Position numbers and translations under genes: made by a program. DNA of 36,366 nt. Source: Chthoniobacterales bacterium. GTDB lineage: Bacteria; Verrucomicrobiota; Verrucomicrobiia; Chthoniobacterales; JACTMZ01. Below the pieces are notes generated by a model. It worked only from the letters and a program-made list of their open reading frames with translations, was not told where the DNA came from and made no database searches. The stretch is from the NCBI GenBank assembly GCA_018883245.1, contig VEQL01000027.1, forward strand, positions 1 through 36,366. Reading direction: 5' to 3'. Below are positions 1 through 12,561 of this stretch, one piece after another (the stretch's first letter is position 1; each line of letters opens with the position of its first letter).

Positions 1-5
1 AAAGA

Positions 6-30
6 GGACAGTTGAAAAGTGAAGTTCTGC
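6..30. repeat. IS3 element, inner part of the left inverted repeat
   Basis: GGACAG (6-11) and TGAAGTTCTGC (20-30) match the reverse complement of 1335-1359 with the same spacing. This marks the left terminal region of the insertion sequence; the outermost bases are outside the window. Confidence 0.75.
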
Positions 31-3289: not shown

Positions 3290-4726
3290 TCAGTAGCGGT
3301 AGTGCTCGGGCTTGTAGGGACCTTCGACAGCAACGCCGAGGTATTCCGACTGCTCCTTGGTGAGCTTTGTCAGTTTGACGCCGATCTTCTCGAGGTGCAG
3401 GCGCGCGACTTCCTCGTCGAGCTTTTTCGGAAGGACATAGACGGCGGGTTTGTAGATGTCCTTGTTCTTCCACAGATCGAGCGCAGCCAGTGTCTGGTTG
3501 CTGAAGCTGTTGCTCATGACGAAGCTCGGGTGGCCGGTGGCACAGCCGAGGTTGACGAGGCGTCCTTCGGCGAGGAGGAATACTTCCTTGCCGTTCGGGA
3601 AGACGTATTTATCGAGCTGCGGCTTGATGTTGACCTTCTTCACGCCGGGCAGGCTGTTCAGTTTGTCCACCTGGATCTCATTGTCGAAGTGGCCGATGTT
3701 CGCGATGACCGCCTGGTCCTTCATCTTGGAGATGTGGTCGGCGGTGATGACGTCCTTGTTGCCGGTCGTCGTGATGTAGATGTCGCCGCGGCCGAGGGTG
3801 TCCTCGAGCGTGGTGACTTCGAAGCCTTCCATCGCGGCCTGCAGGGCGTTGATCGGGTCGATCTCGGTGACAATGACGCGCGCGCCTTGTCCGCGCAGCG
3901 ACTGGGCCGAACCCTTGCCGACGTCGCCGTATCCGCAGACCACGGCGACCTTGCCGGAGATCATCACGTCGAGCGCGCGGTTGAGTCCGTCCACCAGTGA
4001 ATGGCGGCACCCGTAGAGGTTGTCGAACTTCGACTTGGTCACCGAGTCGTTGACGTTGAACGCGGGGACAAGAAGTTTTCCGACTTCCTGGAGCTTGTAG
4101 AGCCGGTGGACGCCGGTCGTGGTTTCCTCGGAGACGCCTTTCCATTCCTTGACCAATTCGTGGAACACAAAAGGGTTTTCGGCGTGGATGCTCTTGAGCA
4201 GGTCTTTTATAACTTTCTCTTCGTGGCTCCCGCTGGGCGAATTCACCCAATCGTCGCCTTCCTCCATTTCGTAGCCTTTATGGAGCAGCAGCGTGACATC
4301 GCCGCCGTCATCGACGACGAGCTGCGGGCCTTTGCCCTCGGGATTGACGATGGCTTTCCAAGTGCAGTCCCAATACTCCTCGAGCGTCTCGCCTTTCCAT
4401 GCGAAGACGGGAATGCCGGCGGCGGCGATGGCCGCGGCCGCTTGGTCCTGCGTGGAGAAAATGTTGCAGCTGGCCCAGCGGACGTCAGCGCCGAGTTCGA
4501 CGAGCGTCTCGATGAGCACGGCCGTCTGGATGGTCATGTGCAGCGAGCCGGTCACGCGCACGCCCTTCAGCGGTTTTTCCTTCGCGTATTTCTCGCGAAT
4601 GGCCATCAAGCCGGGCATTTCCTTCTCGGCGATTTCGATTTCTTTGCGGCCCCATTCGGCGAGGCTGAGGTCGGCGACTTTGAAGTCGTTGGTGACTTTG
4701 GTCTGTTTGATTGCGGCAGTGCTCAT
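3290..4726 (-). CDS. ahcY: S-adenosylhomocysteine hydrolase
   Basis: A cytosolic enzyme that splits S-adenosylhomocysteine into adenosine and homocysteine, relieving product inhibition of methyltransferases. At 478 residues it is full length. Visible family features are [16 protein letters not shown] (60-75), [31 protein letters not shown], the NAD-binding GYGDVGKG at 265-272, NIGHFDNEI, and the C-terminal KPEHYRY that closes the active site. It lies 55 nt downstream of metK on the same strand with no obvious terminator between, so both are probably transcribed from the promoter next to the 6027-6060 palindrome. The start at ATG 4726 gives the normal N-terminal length. Confidence 0.97.
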
Positions 4727-6070: not shown

Positions 6071-6991
6071 ATGCAGGGAACCCTCAAAATTCTCAAGCTG
6101 CTTTCCGACCCTACGCGGTTGCGCATCTTGCGGCTGCTCGGGCGGGAGGAACTGACTGTCGCCGAGCTGCAGCAGATTCTGGGCATGGGTCAGTCCCGCA
6201 CCAGCGCGCATCTGGCCCAGCTGAAGGTCGAGGGCTTGGTTTCCGACCGGCGCGCCGGGAAAAACATCTATTACACGCGCGGGGGCAAGGTGTCGGGAGC
6301 CGTTGCCGAGCTCGTCGAAAGCGGCGGCGAAGAATTGGCCGAGGGTGCGGCTGATGATGCCGCGGTGAAGCTGGTCCTTCGGAAGCGCCAGGACAAAGCG
6401 GGCGAGTATTTCAACCAGCTGGCCGGCAAGTTTGGTCGCACCTATGTGCCGGGGCGTTCTTGGCGGGCCTTGGCCCACGGGTTGTTGCGACTCCTGCCTC
6501 CGATGGTTATCGCCGACCTCGGGGCGGGCGAGGGAACGCTGTCGCAACTGCTCGCGCGCACGGCGAAAAAAGTGATCGCCATCGACAGTTCGCCGGCCAT
6601 GGTGGAATTCGGATCAAAGCTTGCGGCCGACCACGGCTTGAAAAATCTCGAATATCGTCTCGGGGAAATAGAGGCCCCTCCTATCAAGGCGGGCGCGGTT
6701 GATCTGGCGCTCTTCAGTCAGGCCCTGCACCACGCGGCGAGTCCGGGCAAAGCCCTTTCGGCTGCACACAGGATTCTCAAGCCGGGCGGACGCCTGCTGG
6801 TCCTCGATCTGCTCAGTCACTCGTTCGAGCAGGCTCGGACCCTCTATGCCCATGTGTGGCTCGGGTTTTCCGAGGTCGAATTGATGCGCCTCATCGAGAA
6901 GGCGGGGTTCAAGGATGTGGAGGTTTCCGTGGTCAGTCGCGAAGCCCGCGCCCCGCATTTCCAGACCGTGTTGGCCACGGCGCGGAAGTAG
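6071..6991 (+). CDS. ArsR-family HTH fused to a SAM-type methyltransferase domain; probable SAM-cycle regulator
   Basis: A 306-residue protein. Residues 5-70 form an ArsR winged helix (LKLLSDPTRLRILRLLGREE, then ELTVAELQQILGMGQSRTSAHL and a KNIYYT wing). Residues 140-260 form a class I methyltransferase fold with motif I DLGAGEG (149-155), acidic residues at 172, and a motif IV-like region around LALFSQALHH. No metal-binding cysteines of ArsR/SmtB type are visible. Divergent placement next to metK-ahcY across a strong palindrome suggests it senses SAM or SAH through its C-terminal domain, as SahR-type ArsR proteins sense SAH. Whether the domain still transfers methyl groups cannot be told. 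ATG 6071 follows the operator closely; no good ribosome site is seen. Confidence 0.88.
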   Translation: MQGTLKILKLLSDPTRLRILRLLGREELTVAELQQILGMGQSRTSAHLAQLKVEGLVSDRRAGKNIYYTRGGKVSGAVAELVESGGEELAEGAADDAAVKLVLRKRQDKAGEYFNQLAGKFGRTYVPGRSWRALAHGLLRLLPPMVIADLGAGEGTLSQLLARTAKKVIAIDSSPAMVEFGSKLAADHGLKNLEYRLGEIEAPPIKAGAVDLALFSQALHHAASPGKALSAAHRILKPGGRLLVLDLLSHSFEQARTLYAHVWLGFSEVELMRLIEKAGFKDVEVSVVSREARAPHFQTVLATARK

Positions 6992-7070: not shown

Positions 7071-8219
7071 ATGCCCGATTCCTTTCAAGTCACTTCGAAT
7101 TCGTCATGGTTCAGCCGCATCGGTAAATCGATCAGCGGTATTATCGTAGGCCTGATTTTGCTGCTGATCGGCGTTGGCCTGCTCTTCTGGAACGAAGGCC
7201 GCGCCGTCAAAACCTACAAGACTTTGAAGGAAGGTCAGGGGCTGGTTATCGACGTGAGCGCCGAGTCGGTCGATGCCGCCAACGATGGCAAGCTCGTCCA
7301 TCTGACGGCCGATGCCGTGACGGACGAAATCCTCTCGGACCAAGATTTCGGCGTTTCGGCCAACGCGATCCGGCTGCGTCGAGATGTCGAAATGTATCAG
7401 TGGCAGGAAACCGAAAAGAGCGAAACCCGCAAAAAGCTGGGCGGCGGCGAGGAAACGGTGACCACCTACACTTACAGCAAGGCGTGGAGCAGCCAACTGA
7501 ACAACTCGGCCAATTTTCAGGATCCGGCCGGACACGAAAATCCTGCGGAGTTCCCCTATGACAGCATGACGTGGGATGCCCGGGATGTGGGTGTCGGGGC
7601 ATTTTATCTGCCTCCCGACCTCGTGGGGAAACTTTCGGACTACAAGGATCTTCCGGTGCGCGATATCCCCGAAGGTGCGCAGTGGCCGGAAGATGCGCGG
7701 GCGGACAAAGGCGGTATCTATCTCGGCGCCGATCCCTCCAAGCCGCAAGTCGGCGACGTGCGCATCAAATTTTCCCTCGTCGAGCCCGGCCCCGTGAGCA
7801 TCGTTGCTGCGCAAAGCGGCGATTCTTTCGCAGATTACCGCGCCGAAGCCGGGGGGGCGATTGCCATGATCGTCCCCGGGAAAGTTCCCGCGCAGCAGAT
7901 GTTCGAGAATGCGTTGAGCGAAAACACCGTGCTGACTTGGATCCTGCGGCTCGCGGGGTTCATCCTTATTTGGATCGGTTTCAGTCTGATTTTCGCGCCG
8001 CTTTCTGTGCTCGCCGACATCGTGCCGCTTTTCGGCAACTTGGTCGGTGCGGCAACGGGTTTGATCGCGTTCCTGCTGGCTCTGGCAGTTGCGCTTACGG
8101 TCACGGCCATCGCGTGGCTGTTTTTCCGGCCCTTGCTCGGCATCGCTCTGCTTGTGCTCGCGATCGCGGCTGCCGTGTTCGGATTCCGCGCCTTCCGCAA
8201 AAAGCCGCAGGCCGCATGA
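7071..8219 (+). CDS. TMEM43-family membrane protein
   Basis: A 382-residue protein from ATG 7071; an in-frame GTG at 7029 would add 14 residues that look non-coding. One hydrophobic helix (about 21-40) ends in FWNEGRAVKT, a hallmark of the TMEM43/LUMA family. A long hydrophilic, beta-rich region (about 50-285) follows, then about four hydrophobic helices (about 290-370) and a basic tail. Eukaryotic TMEM43 is an inner nuclear membrane and ER protein; the role of bacterial members is not established. The TGA at 8217-8219 overlaps the ATG of the secreted transglutaminase-like gene, so the two are translationally coupled and may act together at the envelope. Confidence 0.8.
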   Translation: MPDSFQVTSNSSWFSRIGKSISGIIVGLILLLIGVGLLFWNEGRAVKTYKTLKEGQGLVIDVSAESVDAANDGKLVHLTADAVTDEILSDQDFGVSANAIRLRRDVEMYQWQETEKSETRKKLGGGEETVTTYTYSKAWSSQLNNSANFQDPAGHENPAEFPYDSMTWDARDVGVGAFYLPPDLVGKLSDYKDLPVRDIPEGAQWPEDARADKGGIYLGADPSKPQVGDVRIKFSLVEPGPVSIVAAQSGDSFADYRAEAGGAIAMIVPGKVPAQQMFENALSENTVLTWILRLAGFILIWIGFSLIFAPLSVLADIVPLFGNLVGAATGLIAFLLALAVALTVTAIAWLFFRPLLGIALLVLAIAAAVFGFRAFRKKPQAA

Positions 8220-9385
8220 TGAAAAAGTTCCTCGCTACATTTGTCCTGTTCGCTTTTTGCGCCGCAGGTGCGGTCGCGGAAGTCGAGTGGGATCCCGAGA
8301 TTTACCCGGACAGCCAGATCTTTCCCTCGCTCATCATCGGGACGGCCGCGGTGAAGCCGGAGAATGAAGTGTTTGCCATGTGGGAAGGCAACCATATCGG
8401 GGACCGCCAGGGTGTCGTCGGCGCTTCTGTGGAGGGCGTTTCCTCCGGAAGCACGGTGGAGCTCGAGGTGCGGGAGAACGACATCATGAACGCCAGCCAC
8501 ATCAAGGGCACGGCTGAGAACAACGATGCCCTGACCATTTACCCGAAGATTTCCTGGAAATACGACCGGTTGGCGAAGGTCAAGCAAACCGTGCCGATCG
8601 ATGTCACCATGGAACTCAAAGTCGATGGCAAAAGTCTCGGCGACAAGACTGTCACCGCAACGCTCCGCACGGTGAACGACTGTCTTTTCGGCGTGATGGA
8701 ACCGGGAGAGGAGGAGAACTATTCGGATTACTCGTGGCTCTTTGCGGCCTATGTGAACGAGAACCATCCTTGGGTTGATCGCACGCTCAAGGAGGCGCTG
8801 GATACGAAGATTGTTTCATCGTTCGACGATTACCAGAGCGGCGATCCCCAGCAGGTGCTTCGCCAGGTCTTCGCCATTTGGAACGTCATGCAGCGGAAAG
8901 GGCTGCGCTACAGCAATGTCGTCACCACCGCCGCGGAGTCGGAGTCGGTGCACAGCCAGCATGTCCGTCTCTTCGACGAGTCGGTGAAGGCCGCGCAGGC
9001 CAATTGCGTGGACGGGTCCGTGCTTCTCGCCGCCGTCTTGCGCAAGATCGGTCTTGATCCGCATCTCGTTTCCGTCCCCGGCCACATGTTTCTCGCGTTT
9101 TCCCTCGACGACGAGACGATGGTCGGTCTGGAGACGACAATGATGGGCGATGCGGACCTGCCCGCCGTCGATGGCAAGCGGTTGCGCTCGTTTCTCAAGT
9201 TCGATCCCGAGCAACGCAAAAACGACGAGTCTTGGGCCACCTTCGAGGCTGCGCTCGATACGGGGACGCAGGCGCTGGTCGAGGCGTCGGACAAATTCGG
9301 CGAAGATCCTGATTACCAGCTCATCGATCTCCAGGCTGCGCGCAACCTCGGTATCTTGCCGGTAAGCAGTGCGGTGACCGACTGA
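8216..9385 (+). CDS. Secreted transglutaminase-like cysteine protein
   Basis: A 389-residue protein starting MMKK with a Sec signal peptide (cleavage probably after AGAVA at about 21). ATG 8216 overlaps the TMEM43 stop as ATGA; ATG 8219 is an equal alternative. The C-terminal half carries a transglutaminase-core triad: Cys264 in NCVDGSVLLAA, His290 in PGHMFLAF and Glu306 in GLETTM. The N-terminal half is beta-rich and unassigned. Members of this superfamily are proteases, amidases or cross-linkers; the substrate here is unknown. The close pairing with the TMEM43-like protein suggests a shared periplasmic or surface process. Confidence 0.8.
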   Translation: MMKKFLATFVLFAFCAAGAVAEVEWDPEIYPDSQIFPSLIIGTAAVKPENEVFAMWEGNHIGDRQGVVGASVEGVSSGSTVELEVRENDIMNASHIKGTAENNDALTIYPKISWKYDRLAKVKQTVPIDVTMELKVDGKSLGDKTVTATLRTVNDCLFGVMEPGEEENYSDYSWLFAAYVNENHPWVDRTLKEALDTKIVSSFDDYQSGDPQQVLRQVFAIWNVMQRKGLRYSNVVTTAAESESVHSQHVRLFDESVKAAQANCVDGSVLLAAVLRKIGLDPHLVSVPGHMFLAFSLDDETMVGLETTMMGDADLPAVDGKRLRSFLKFDPEQRKNDESWATFEAALDTGTQALVEASDKFGEDPDYQLIDLQAARNLGILPVSSAVTD

Positions 9386-9576: not shown

Positions 9577-10107
9577 TTACTTGGACGTCGGCTTGAACGA
9601 ATTCAGCACGGCCTGCGCCGTGGTGAGGTCGTTGTTGCCTTCCGGGAAAACCGCGGCCCAGATTTCGGCCACCGTTTTCGGCCCGAGGGCGATCATTGCC
9701 GAAACGAACTGCACCGCGTTGCCTTCCTTGTCCTTGCCCGTTCCCGCGAGTTGCGCGCCGGGCTGGCCTTCCACGGTGATTTCCTTGGGTTCGTCGAGCT
9801 TGATGTCGGTGTAGTTCTCCGCGAGGAACTCGCCCGTCGAATCGAAGATCGAATCGATTTCTTTTTTGGCCTCTTCCTCGTTTTCGCACTCCACGGCGCG
9901 GAACTGCAGCACCGATCCGTTCTCGCTTTCGAGCGAGCCGAATTCGCCGACCTCGTCGATGGAAGTCACTTCCCAATCGGCCGGAGCTTCGATGGTGAAC
10001 ATCGAGGCGTCCTGGGTGGGGTAATGCAGTGTCTTTGTTTCGGCTTGCGCGGAAGTCAGCAAAGCCAGCAGTAGAGCCGACAGGGGGAGGGCGAGGAGTT
10101 TTTTCAT
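9577..10107 (-). CDS. Exported protein, PsbP/DcrB-like fold possible
   Basis: A 176-residue protein with a clear Sec signal peptide (MKKLLALPLSALLLALLTSAQA). The mature part is acidic and contains FTIEAPADWEV, a pattern common in small periplasmic proteins that relate loosely to DcrB and PsbP, but I cannot assign it firmly. It lies convergent with the transglutaminase-like gene and 58 nt downstream of the LprI-like gene on the same strand. Function unknown. Confidence 0.75.
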   Translation of the reverse strand: MKKLLALPLSALLLALLTSAQAETKTLHYPTQDASMFTIEAPADWEVTSIDEVGEFGSLESENGSVLQFRAVECENEEEAKKEIDSIFDSTGEFLAENYTDIKLDEPKEITVEGQPGAQLAGTGKDKEGNAVQFVSAMIALGPKTVAEIWAAVFPEGNNDLTTAQAVLNSFKPTSK

Positions 10108-10694: not shown

Positions 10695-11006
10695 ATGCGC
10701 AAGCGTGTCTGGGTGGCCATTGTTCTCACTTTGATGCTCCTTTGTGCCCTGGGCGGATCTCTCCTGCTGGTCGTCATCACACCGTTTCTTTTCGATGATC
10801 CCTATGCCGCGGATTTGAAGGCGACCTGGATCATGGCCGGCGCCGTGCTCTCTCTGCCGGTGATGTGCCTCTTGGCTATCGCCGGCGTGTGGATCGCCGC
10901 GTTTCCCGCCGGGCGCAGTCGTTGGTGGTATGCGGTTCTTGCGCTTCCTCTGCTCAGCCTTTTGGTCTTCCGTGTTGCGGGCTCCTACCGCCCGGGATTT
11001 TTTTGA
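10695..11006 (+). CDS. Small integral membrane protein
   Basis: A 103-residue protein from ATG 10695 with three predicted membrane helices (about 5-28, 42-64 and 73-93). The in-frame extension upstream to 10554 covers the start of the divergent LprI-like gene and is not used. No family is recognised. It converges with another small membrane protein, with only 4 nt between the stops. Confidence 0.6.
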   Translation: MRKRVWVAIVLTLMLLCALGGSLLLVVITPFLFDDPYAADLKATWIMAGAVLSLPVMCLLAIAGVWIAAFPAGRSRWWYAVLALPLLSLLVFRVAGSYRPGFF

Positions 11007-11010
11007 GCGC

Positions 11011-11349
11011 TCAGCCCGTGATCTGCGACGCGAAGGCGTAAACGCCGGCCACCTGCATCAGCAGTCCCGCACCCAGCAGGCACGCGAAGACGAACAACAG
11101 CAGTTTTCTCCTCGCTCGCCAGAAACATGCCGCGCCGAGCGGAATGCCTGCCGCACCGGCGAGAATTTGTCCGCCCAGCACAAGCACAACCATGGTGGTC
11201 TGGCTTGACTCCGGGGCGTTACCGGCATCGTTCGCCATGAGAGTGCCCATGAGGGAGAGGGTGGCGACAACAGTGGCGCCTCCACCCCACACCGCGGTGA
11301 GCAGGAGGCCGCCCGCAATACGGAGAGCGTTGGCGGTGTTCGTCTTCAA
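11011..11349 (-). CDS. Small integral membrane protein
   Basis: About 112 residues with three hydrophobic helices (ALRIAGGLLLTAVWGGG, VVLVLGGQILAGAAGIPLG, LLLFVFACLLGAGLLMQVAG) and no recognised family. No ATG fits: TTG 11349 (giving MKTNTANALRIAGG) is my choice, and GTG 11391 is an alternative that would overlap the upstream gene by 10 nt. It lies directly downstream of the 252-residue exported protein and may be co-transcribed. Confidence 0.5.
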   Translation of the reverse strand: MKTNTANALRIAGGLLLTAVWGGGATVVATLSLMGTLMANDAGNAPESSQTTMVVLVLGGQILAGAAGIPLGAACFWRARRKLLLFVFACLLGAGLLMQVAGVYAFASQITG

Positions 11350-12195: not shown

Positions 12196-12561
12196 TCAGC
12201 TTCGCGCGGGGCCGTCCTCGAAAGGAATCTCGGCCGCATCGCGCCAAAGCGATTCCAAATCGTAGAAGGCGCGTTTGTCGGACTGGAAGACGTGGATGAG
12301 GACGCCGCTGTAATCGAGGACGATCCATTGGCTGGCGGGAAATCCGTCCGCGTGCGCGCTGGACCCGAATTTTTCGCGCAGCTTTTCGCGGATTTCGGAG
12401 GCAATGGCTTTGAGGTGGGGTTCGCTGGTGCCGGTGCAAATGACGAAGTAATCGGCGAAGCTGGAAATTTTCCGCAGGTCGAGGATACGGATGTTTTCGG
12501 CCTTCTTGTCGGATGCCGCGTGCGCTGCGGCGAGGGCGATGGATTCGGAGTCGGATGTCAC
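12196..12561 (-). CDS. rsfS: Ribosomal silencing factor RsfS
   Basis: A 121-residue DUF143 protein. RsfS binds ribosomal protein L14 and blocks subunit joining when nutrients are scarce. Family motifs are ILDLRKISSFADYFVICTG, TSEPHLKAIASEI and WIVLDYSGVLIHVF. The GTG start at 12561 overlaps the nadD TGA as GTGA, and this fixes the start although the frame stays open further upstream. The nadD-rsfS order is a very common bacterial pairing. Confidence 0.93.
   Translation of the reverse strand: MTSDSESIALAAAHAASDKKAENIRILDLRKISSFADYFVICTGTSEPHLKAIASEIREKLREKFGSSAHADGFPASQWIVLDYSGVLIHVFQSDKRAFYDLESLWRDAAEIPFEDGPARS

Follow-up and report, generated by a model that had tools for sequence, protein, structure and literature searches.

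The TMEM43-TG pair and its site in the window's genus

The window, i.e. the whole stretch of DNA analysed here, is contig C27 in its entirety (36,366 bases) and comes from a 2.9 Mb genome of the Verrucomicrobiota. Its plus strand carries a gene for a membrane protein of the TMEM43 family (PF07787; 7071..8219, ATG at 7071, stop at 8219, 382 aa) followed by a gene for an apparently exported transglutaminase-like protein, hereafter TG (8216..9385, ATG at 8216, stop at 9385, 389 aa). The start codon of TG (8216-8218) overlaps the stop codon of TMEM43 (8217-8219) and the ATGA reported for the pair in an earlier note on this DNA was indeed found at 8216-8219; the TG gene opens with ATGATG, so that the in-frame ATG at 8219 is an alternative start.

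Assignment of the first gene product to the TMEM43 type, as previously proposed from its FWNEGRAVKT motif (residues 39-48), was confirmed by a match to PF07787 covering all 250 model positions (1-250) with a score of 278.1 bits (cut-off 23.3; E 7.8e-83). Hydropathy analysis displays an N-terminal hydrophobic segment (14-46) and a C-terminal hydrophobic block (286-376) separated by a long hydrophilic domain. This fits the single N-terminal helix and the C-terminal membrane block of the earlier description, hydropathy giving no helix count against which its figure of about four C-terminal helices could be set. The AlphaFold model of TMEM43, obtained from a 5-row alignment, has a pLDDT of 45.3, a quality too low to inform this topology. 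The C-terminal tail is positively charged (R373, R376, K377 and K378) and, if it is cytoplasmic, the large domain would face the periplasm. TMEM43 is predicted to reside in the inner membrane with its middle domain of ~240 residues most likely periplasmic.

In the available text of two papers, human TMEM43 is presented both as a protein of the nuclear envelope and as a cation channel, and is linked to cardiomyopathy, muscular dystrophy and hearing loss (PMC7889174, PMC11059273). The window protein resembles this human TMEM43/LUMA family by its full-length profile match, its FWNEGRA region and its N- and C-terminal hydrophobic segments, but differs in being bacterial and, in this order, tied to TG. 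The earlier note knew of no described role for TMEM43 in bacteria; likewise, neither a treatment of bacterial TMEM43 nor a role for it was found in the text available from the open-access literature (PMC). PDB sequence searches with TMEM43, TG and two small neighbouring families presented below (c2 and c3) returned nothing useful.

On the left, the site is bordered by an ArsR-family regulator/methyltransferase gene (6071..6991, plus strand) and on the right by a conserved flanking gene (12196..12561, minus strand), presumably RsfS, both lying outside the module. Between TG and the right border are found c2, a small secreted-looking protein with no Pfam family over cut-off (9577..10107, minus strand), c7, a secreted-looking protein with an LprI domain (PF07007; 10166..10597, minus strand), c15, a small membrane protein of 103 aa homologous to c37 (10695..11006, plus strand), and a small membrane protein of 112 aa (11011..11349, minus strand). 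This site was compared among the 11 members of the window's genus (g1), G004 and G007 being covered in part. Non-conservation of the pair in close relatives, set beforehand as an argument against the proposal, was not seen: 4 of the 11 members carry TMEM43 and TG, together at one site, and 7 carry neither. In all four, the pair lies beside the ArsR-methyltransferase gene and is accompanied by c2 and the LprI-domain gene, c15 being present at the site in three; the gene taken to be RsfS comes after in three as well, the contig of G004 ending before it. Among the members without the pair, G008 has c2 alone at the site, the flanking genes of G006 nearly touch, G001, G002, G005 and G009 have other genes, and G007 has other genes after the methyltransferase, the part covered ending before the RsfS gene.

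The content of the site beside the ArsR-methyltransferase therefore differs among the 11 genus members, which is consistent with a shared lifestyle without joint function, i.e. TMEM43 and TG being independent envelope genes of particular habitats that have a variable site in common in this genus and co-occur for ecological reasons. The overlap itself is variable too. An identical ATGA overlap of 4 bases is present in G010 (L069 9800-9803), while in G003 and G004 a c3 gene of 123 aa stands between TMEM43 and TG; the overlap is thus present in two of the four pair-carrying genomes of the genus and broken in the other two. Both genes look to be under purifying selection within the genus, judging from dN/dS ratios of 0.07-0.14 for TMEM43 and for TG in 6 genome pairs each (own Nei-Gojobori script; dS of 0.6-1.7, so that the values are rough).

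Three further observations were made along the contig and its counterparts. In G010, TMEM43 and the intact ArsR-methyltransferase gene are separated by a 54-residue piece (G010:C1:367476-367637, within L069; 59% identity, one stop in frame) that corresponds to the 3' end of this gene; it looks as if integration had occurred there. The window gene at 3290-4726, which we take to be adenosylhomocysteinase-like, has 57-59% identity to the versions of G002, G003 and G010 and 92-95% to those of G007, G008 and G009, hence two versions at one site. At the contig end (53-1035) lie two frames which we take to resemble an IS3-type transposase pair.

Distribution of TMEM43 and TG in the order and phylum

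Among 213 genomes of the order, 29 carry a stand-alone TG, 20 carry TMEM43 and 19 carry both (Fisher p 6e-19). For this count, TG was defined by a score of at least 400 bits; one of the genomes so counted, G475, has a stop within the matched frame, and G437 (69.6-bit fragment) and five genomes with weak matches are left out. The association holds after removal of the six genomes with adjacent pairs (TG 23, TMEM43 14, both 13 of 207; p 1e-13) and when counted by genus (TG 14, TMEM43 10, both 9 of 45; p 2e-5). It is also asymmetric, TMEM43 being absent from 10 of the 29 TG genomes and TG from 1 of the 20 TMEM43 genomes of the order, counts to which MAG incompleteness may add absences. In a sample of 97 genomes, 22 have TG (strong matches, four weak genomes dropped), 16 TMEM43 and 15 both, and the association survives shuffling of labels within families (p at most 5e-5). 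After removal of g1 and G092 (85 genomes: TG 17, TMEM43 11, both 10), shuffling within families gives p 2e-4 and shuffling within genera only p 0.085. These co-occurrence statistics are Fisher tests and label shuffles.

Several results argue against a shared lifestyle without joint function. Catalase, the sole control family (30 of 97 genomes), shows no link to TG (p 0.19) or to TMEM43 (p 0.36), and in five genera (g1, g7, g10, g16 and g29, in the 97-genome sample and order listing) both genes or neither were reported for every genome listed. Adjacency, which the earlier note advised to follow across genomes, was found in 6 of the 19 genomes of the order with both genes, in both gene orders and with different flanks: TMEM43 comes first in G000, G003, G004 and G010, and TG in G092 and G413. 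This low proportion, on the other hand, counts in favour of a shared lifestyle. The two genes lie 29 kb apart on the same contig in G054, TG is at a contig edge in G419, so that its adjacency cannot be read, and in the remaining 11 genomes they are on different contigs; this is the case in g10 and in G405 of g16, with other neighbours around each gene.

The association vanishes phylum-wide, again in keeping with a shared lifestyle. Among 288 genomes including that of the window, 7 have TG, 43 have TMEM43 and 2 have both, one of these being the window's own (p 0.28). TG was counted here as matches in frames shorter than 700 aa, including G221 (72 bits, with a stop) and G178 (142 bits) and dropping G138 (33 bits), and TMEM43 as matches at E 0.001, 42 of the 43 being over the cut-off. 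Since the two genes meet in only 2 of 288 genomes, TMEM43 also exists without TG. TG was beside TMEM43 at none of 34 loci of the phylum outside the order, within the stretch covered (four contigs being shorter than 8 kb), and any neighbour family of TMEM43 was common to at most 3 of these 34 loci. The coupling of TMEM43 with TG is therefore specific to this lineage.

In the tree of TMEM43, 4 label changes suffice for the 19 rows of the order that carry TG, compared to 16.2 for shuffled labels, suggesting that there is perhaps a TG-associated TMEM43 lineage, such clustering being inflated by near-copies; the row of G221 is unlabelled in this tree in spite of its TG match, and the window was entered with a shorter start. 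G021, which has TMEM43 without TG, falls among the others on a long branch and its position is unsure. Genomes with TMEM43 do not cluster on the TG tree, where their label changes 10 times for a shuffled mean of 8.7. G413 groups with g16 in both trees while the other listed g7 genomes lack both genes, which fits a joint transfer of the two genes into G413. Similarly, G019 and G029 of g10 form no pair in either tree, some forks being weakly supported, which would fit two separate acquisitions of both genes in g10.

TG as a stand-alone relative of the ProA front module

TG begins like a signal peptide, with a single N-terminal hydrophobic stretch (best window 5-23), and its putative catalytic residues correspond to those named in the earlier note. 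In an alignment of 26 TG sequences including that of the window (members of the order, two MAGs titled Proteobacteria and Desulfarculaceae, and Bacteroidota), C264 and H290 are invariant and E306 is at least 90% conserved (D in L087), in agreement with the Cys, His, Asp/Glu order of the transglutaminase-like superfamily. The predicted layout consists of a beta-sandwich (~22-153) followed by the transglutaminase domain with C264, H290 and E306. The N-terminal Ig-like sandwich is the confident part of the model; much of the transglutaminase domain has a pLDDT below 70 and was barely probed by fold searches. The sandwich resembles many Ig-like domains (factor XIII, C3, HAP2, GH2), its best Z of 7.2 being in the range of a common arrangement, and Foldseek with the TG model gave no match at E 0.001 or below.

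Profile searches raise the question of whether TG could be a catalytically dead, secreted binding or scaffold protein for TMEM43. The Pfam transglutaminase profile scores the window protein (P0002) at 11.6 bits, under its cut-off of 23.5, and this is the result in favour of a dead TG; among the 26 members, PF01841 matches 11 and PF13369 matches 7 (E up to 1; best 0.00025). The conservation of C264, H290 and E306 over the 26 sequences, however, and the presence of the same C, H and E in eight ProA-type proteins considered below, make a loss of catalysis very unlikely.

NF058533, the NCBIfam model of the anti-phage protein ProA, matches all 26 TG sequences with its N-terminal part (E up to 1; best 2.2e-30). 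For the window protein, residues 97-387 align with ProA positions 47-316 of 1903 (E 4.8e-27) at 93.9 bits, the equivalog cut-off of 1500 not being reached. The likeness extends to the C, H and E, recognised by eye in the eight ProA-type proteins that could usefully be read from 20 loci (L026, L106, L107, L109, L111, L113, L114 and L117). TG differs from ProA in being a protein of 389 aa, apparently exported, without helicase, Vsr, nuclease or wHTH part. Related modules occur in large proteins elsewhere: 29 records of a plasmid collection match TG, the matched gene carrying a DUF4011 or DUF3320 annotation in 21, and in the phylum-wide TG search the match lies within an open frame of 1,643-2,196 aa in 18 of the 27 genomes that have one. 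In the available text of Anantharaman et al. 2013 (PMC3710099), an architecture is described which combines an SF-I helicase, a transglutaminase-like peptidase, a Vsr nuclease and a wHTH overlapping DUF3320, and the transglutaminase part of these helicase proteins is proposed to cleave proteins. By sequence comparison, TG is a stand-alone, apparently exported form of the ProA/DUF4011/DUF3320 front module, a form in which this transglutaminase module is seen here. A paper explaining the name ProA was searched for and none was found. ProA-type matches in TMEM43 genomes outside the order (6 of 42, compared to 20 of 287 genomes overall; p 0.054) are a weak signal and were left out of the argument.

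This kinship brings in an outward-facing defence or competition module, in which TG would be an exported N-terminal module of ProA acting against phage or rivals, with TMEM43 as its membrane partner. The match of all 26 sequences to NF058533, the LprI-domain neighbour at all four genus loci, the patchy presence and the variable site are consistent with such a role. It is nevertheless quite unlikely, as only the N-terminal module of ProA is in common, without helicase or nuclease, both TMEM43 and TG look to be under purifying selection, PADLOC 2.0.0 models gave no family at E up to 1 for these two proteins, which were the ones scanned, and in viral contigs none of 24 and 16 candidate stretches was confirmed as a relative.

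LapG and LapD, a periplasmic transglutaminase-like protease and its inner-membrane receptor, provide another known system for comparison. The likeness would lie in the logic only, that of a periplasmic Cys enzyme under the control of a membrane protein; PF06035, which we take to be the LapG-type protease family, is absent from the 13 families listed for the 26 TG members (E up to 1).

A further transglutaminase-like type of ~570 aa (NGLCIELA...PGH) was observed in L024 and L031 (order families f5 and f4).

Shared accessory families and a probable joint function

Neighbours of TG were compared with neighbours of TMEM43 across genera, a descriptive comparison in which housekeeping genes also appear. 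The family c2, which recurs near TG or the pair in several genera, adjoins TG or the pair or is one gene away in g1, g7, g10 and g16; in G044 and G419 it is no more than a few kb from TMEM43, and in G092 it is on another contig. c3 adjoins TMEM43 in three g28 genomes and separates the two genes of the pair in two g1 genomes. c15 and c37, which merge into one family on iteration, occur in three genomes each of g1 and g28, c37 directly after TMEM43 in the three g28 genomes. In 5 of 7 g21 TG loci, a member of one membrane-protein family is 38-256 bases away from TG, and in G419 a member stands at 61 bases from TMEM43 (a GYF_2 domain being detected in the two g21 members scanned and none in that of G419). 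For a family of 389/446 aa, the distances are 16 bases to TG (G405) and 1.8 kb to TMEM43 (G413). Finally, a membrane family of 112/133 aa is common to the window and G413, where the homologue of the 112-aa window protein (E 1.5e-8) is 236 bases from TMEM43.

In the 97-genome sample, c2 is present in 15 genomes, 12 of them with TG, and c3 in 18, 15 of them with TG. As c3 is associated with catalase too (11 of 18, p 0.003), its co-occurrence alone is weak evidence. When the order loci were set against the 34 TMEM43 loci from outside the order, 25 pairs were obtained (E 1e-5, within 4 kb). Inspected by eye, most of them belong to large, widespread families (helicases, sensors, ABC, dehydrogenases); 4 of the 25 have a member shorter than 200 aa, among them L060/L143 (243 and 119 aa). 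Profiles of c2, c3 and c15/c37 matched nothing in the 34 loci outside the order, nor are these families among the 25 pairs. The recurring small families are taken to link TG and TMEM43 loci that lie apart into one putative module, which speaks against a shared lifestyle; with the catalase control, the both-or-neither genera and the two gene orders pointing the same way, that explanation is possible but rather doubtful.

In G004, a c2 protein is fused to a c3-like C-terminal domain (L089 4034-4867, minus strand), which is the second c3 domain there. In L092, a Bacteroides TG homologue (46% identity, residues 107-315) has a DUF3805 protein as its neighbour; near the TG homologue of L093 lies a protein with 50% identity to this DUF3805 protein. 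An identity of DUF3805 with c2 was considered and dropped, the profile comparisons giving probabilities of 5.5% and 0.4%.

Taken together, these results make it likely that TMEM43 and TG have a joint function and act in one process. The earlier note had based a joint envelope function on the coupling of the two genes; joint function is now favoured by the co-occurrence in the order (TG in 19 of 20 TMEM43 genomes) and by the shared accessory genes more than by the ATGA overlap, which is kept in two of four genus members and belongs to a lineage-specific link. The reading preferred here, to which we give a probability of about 0.45, is that of a lineage-specific envelope module in which TMEM43 would serve or control a periplasmic TG peptidase. 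TG would be made with a signal peptide, exported, and function as a Cys-His-Glu enzyme either in the periplasm or outside. It would most likely be a peptidase, because its closest described relatives are predicted to cleave proteins in the text available of PMC3710099. TMEM43 would anchor, activate or restrain it, and c2, c3, c15/c37 and the LprI-like proteins may be substrates, inhibitors or adaptors. As TMEM43 is hardly ever found without TG in the order (1 of 20) and TG is often found without TMEM43 (10 of 29), TG may be the effector, able to act without TMEM43, and TMEM43 an accessory or regulator. This particular mechanism, an exported peptidase controlled or anchored by TMEM43, is a tentative proposal and on the doubtful side. 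Less likely still is the most extended version, in which TMEM43 would be a membrane protein dedicated to regulating or anchoring a periplasmic transglutaminase-like peptidase, the latter an exported derivative of the front module of ProA, and both would belong to a new envelope system of several genes comprising TMEM43, TG, c2, c3, c15/c37 and further membrane proteins; the TMEM43 family would then have its first bacterial process.

The TMEM43 and TG families are both already known, their combination here being one of a membrane protein with a transglutaminase-like enzyme. A TMEM43 from bacteria, tied genetically to an enzyme partner, would make it possible to ask in a simple system what this family does.

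On three Roseobacter plasmid records (L094, L095 and L096), TG was absent among the families scanned or annotated around TMEM43. These records have in common a TMEM43 cluster with conserved hypothetical proteins of 189, 155 and ~270 aa, and two of the three are plasmids typed as conjugative.
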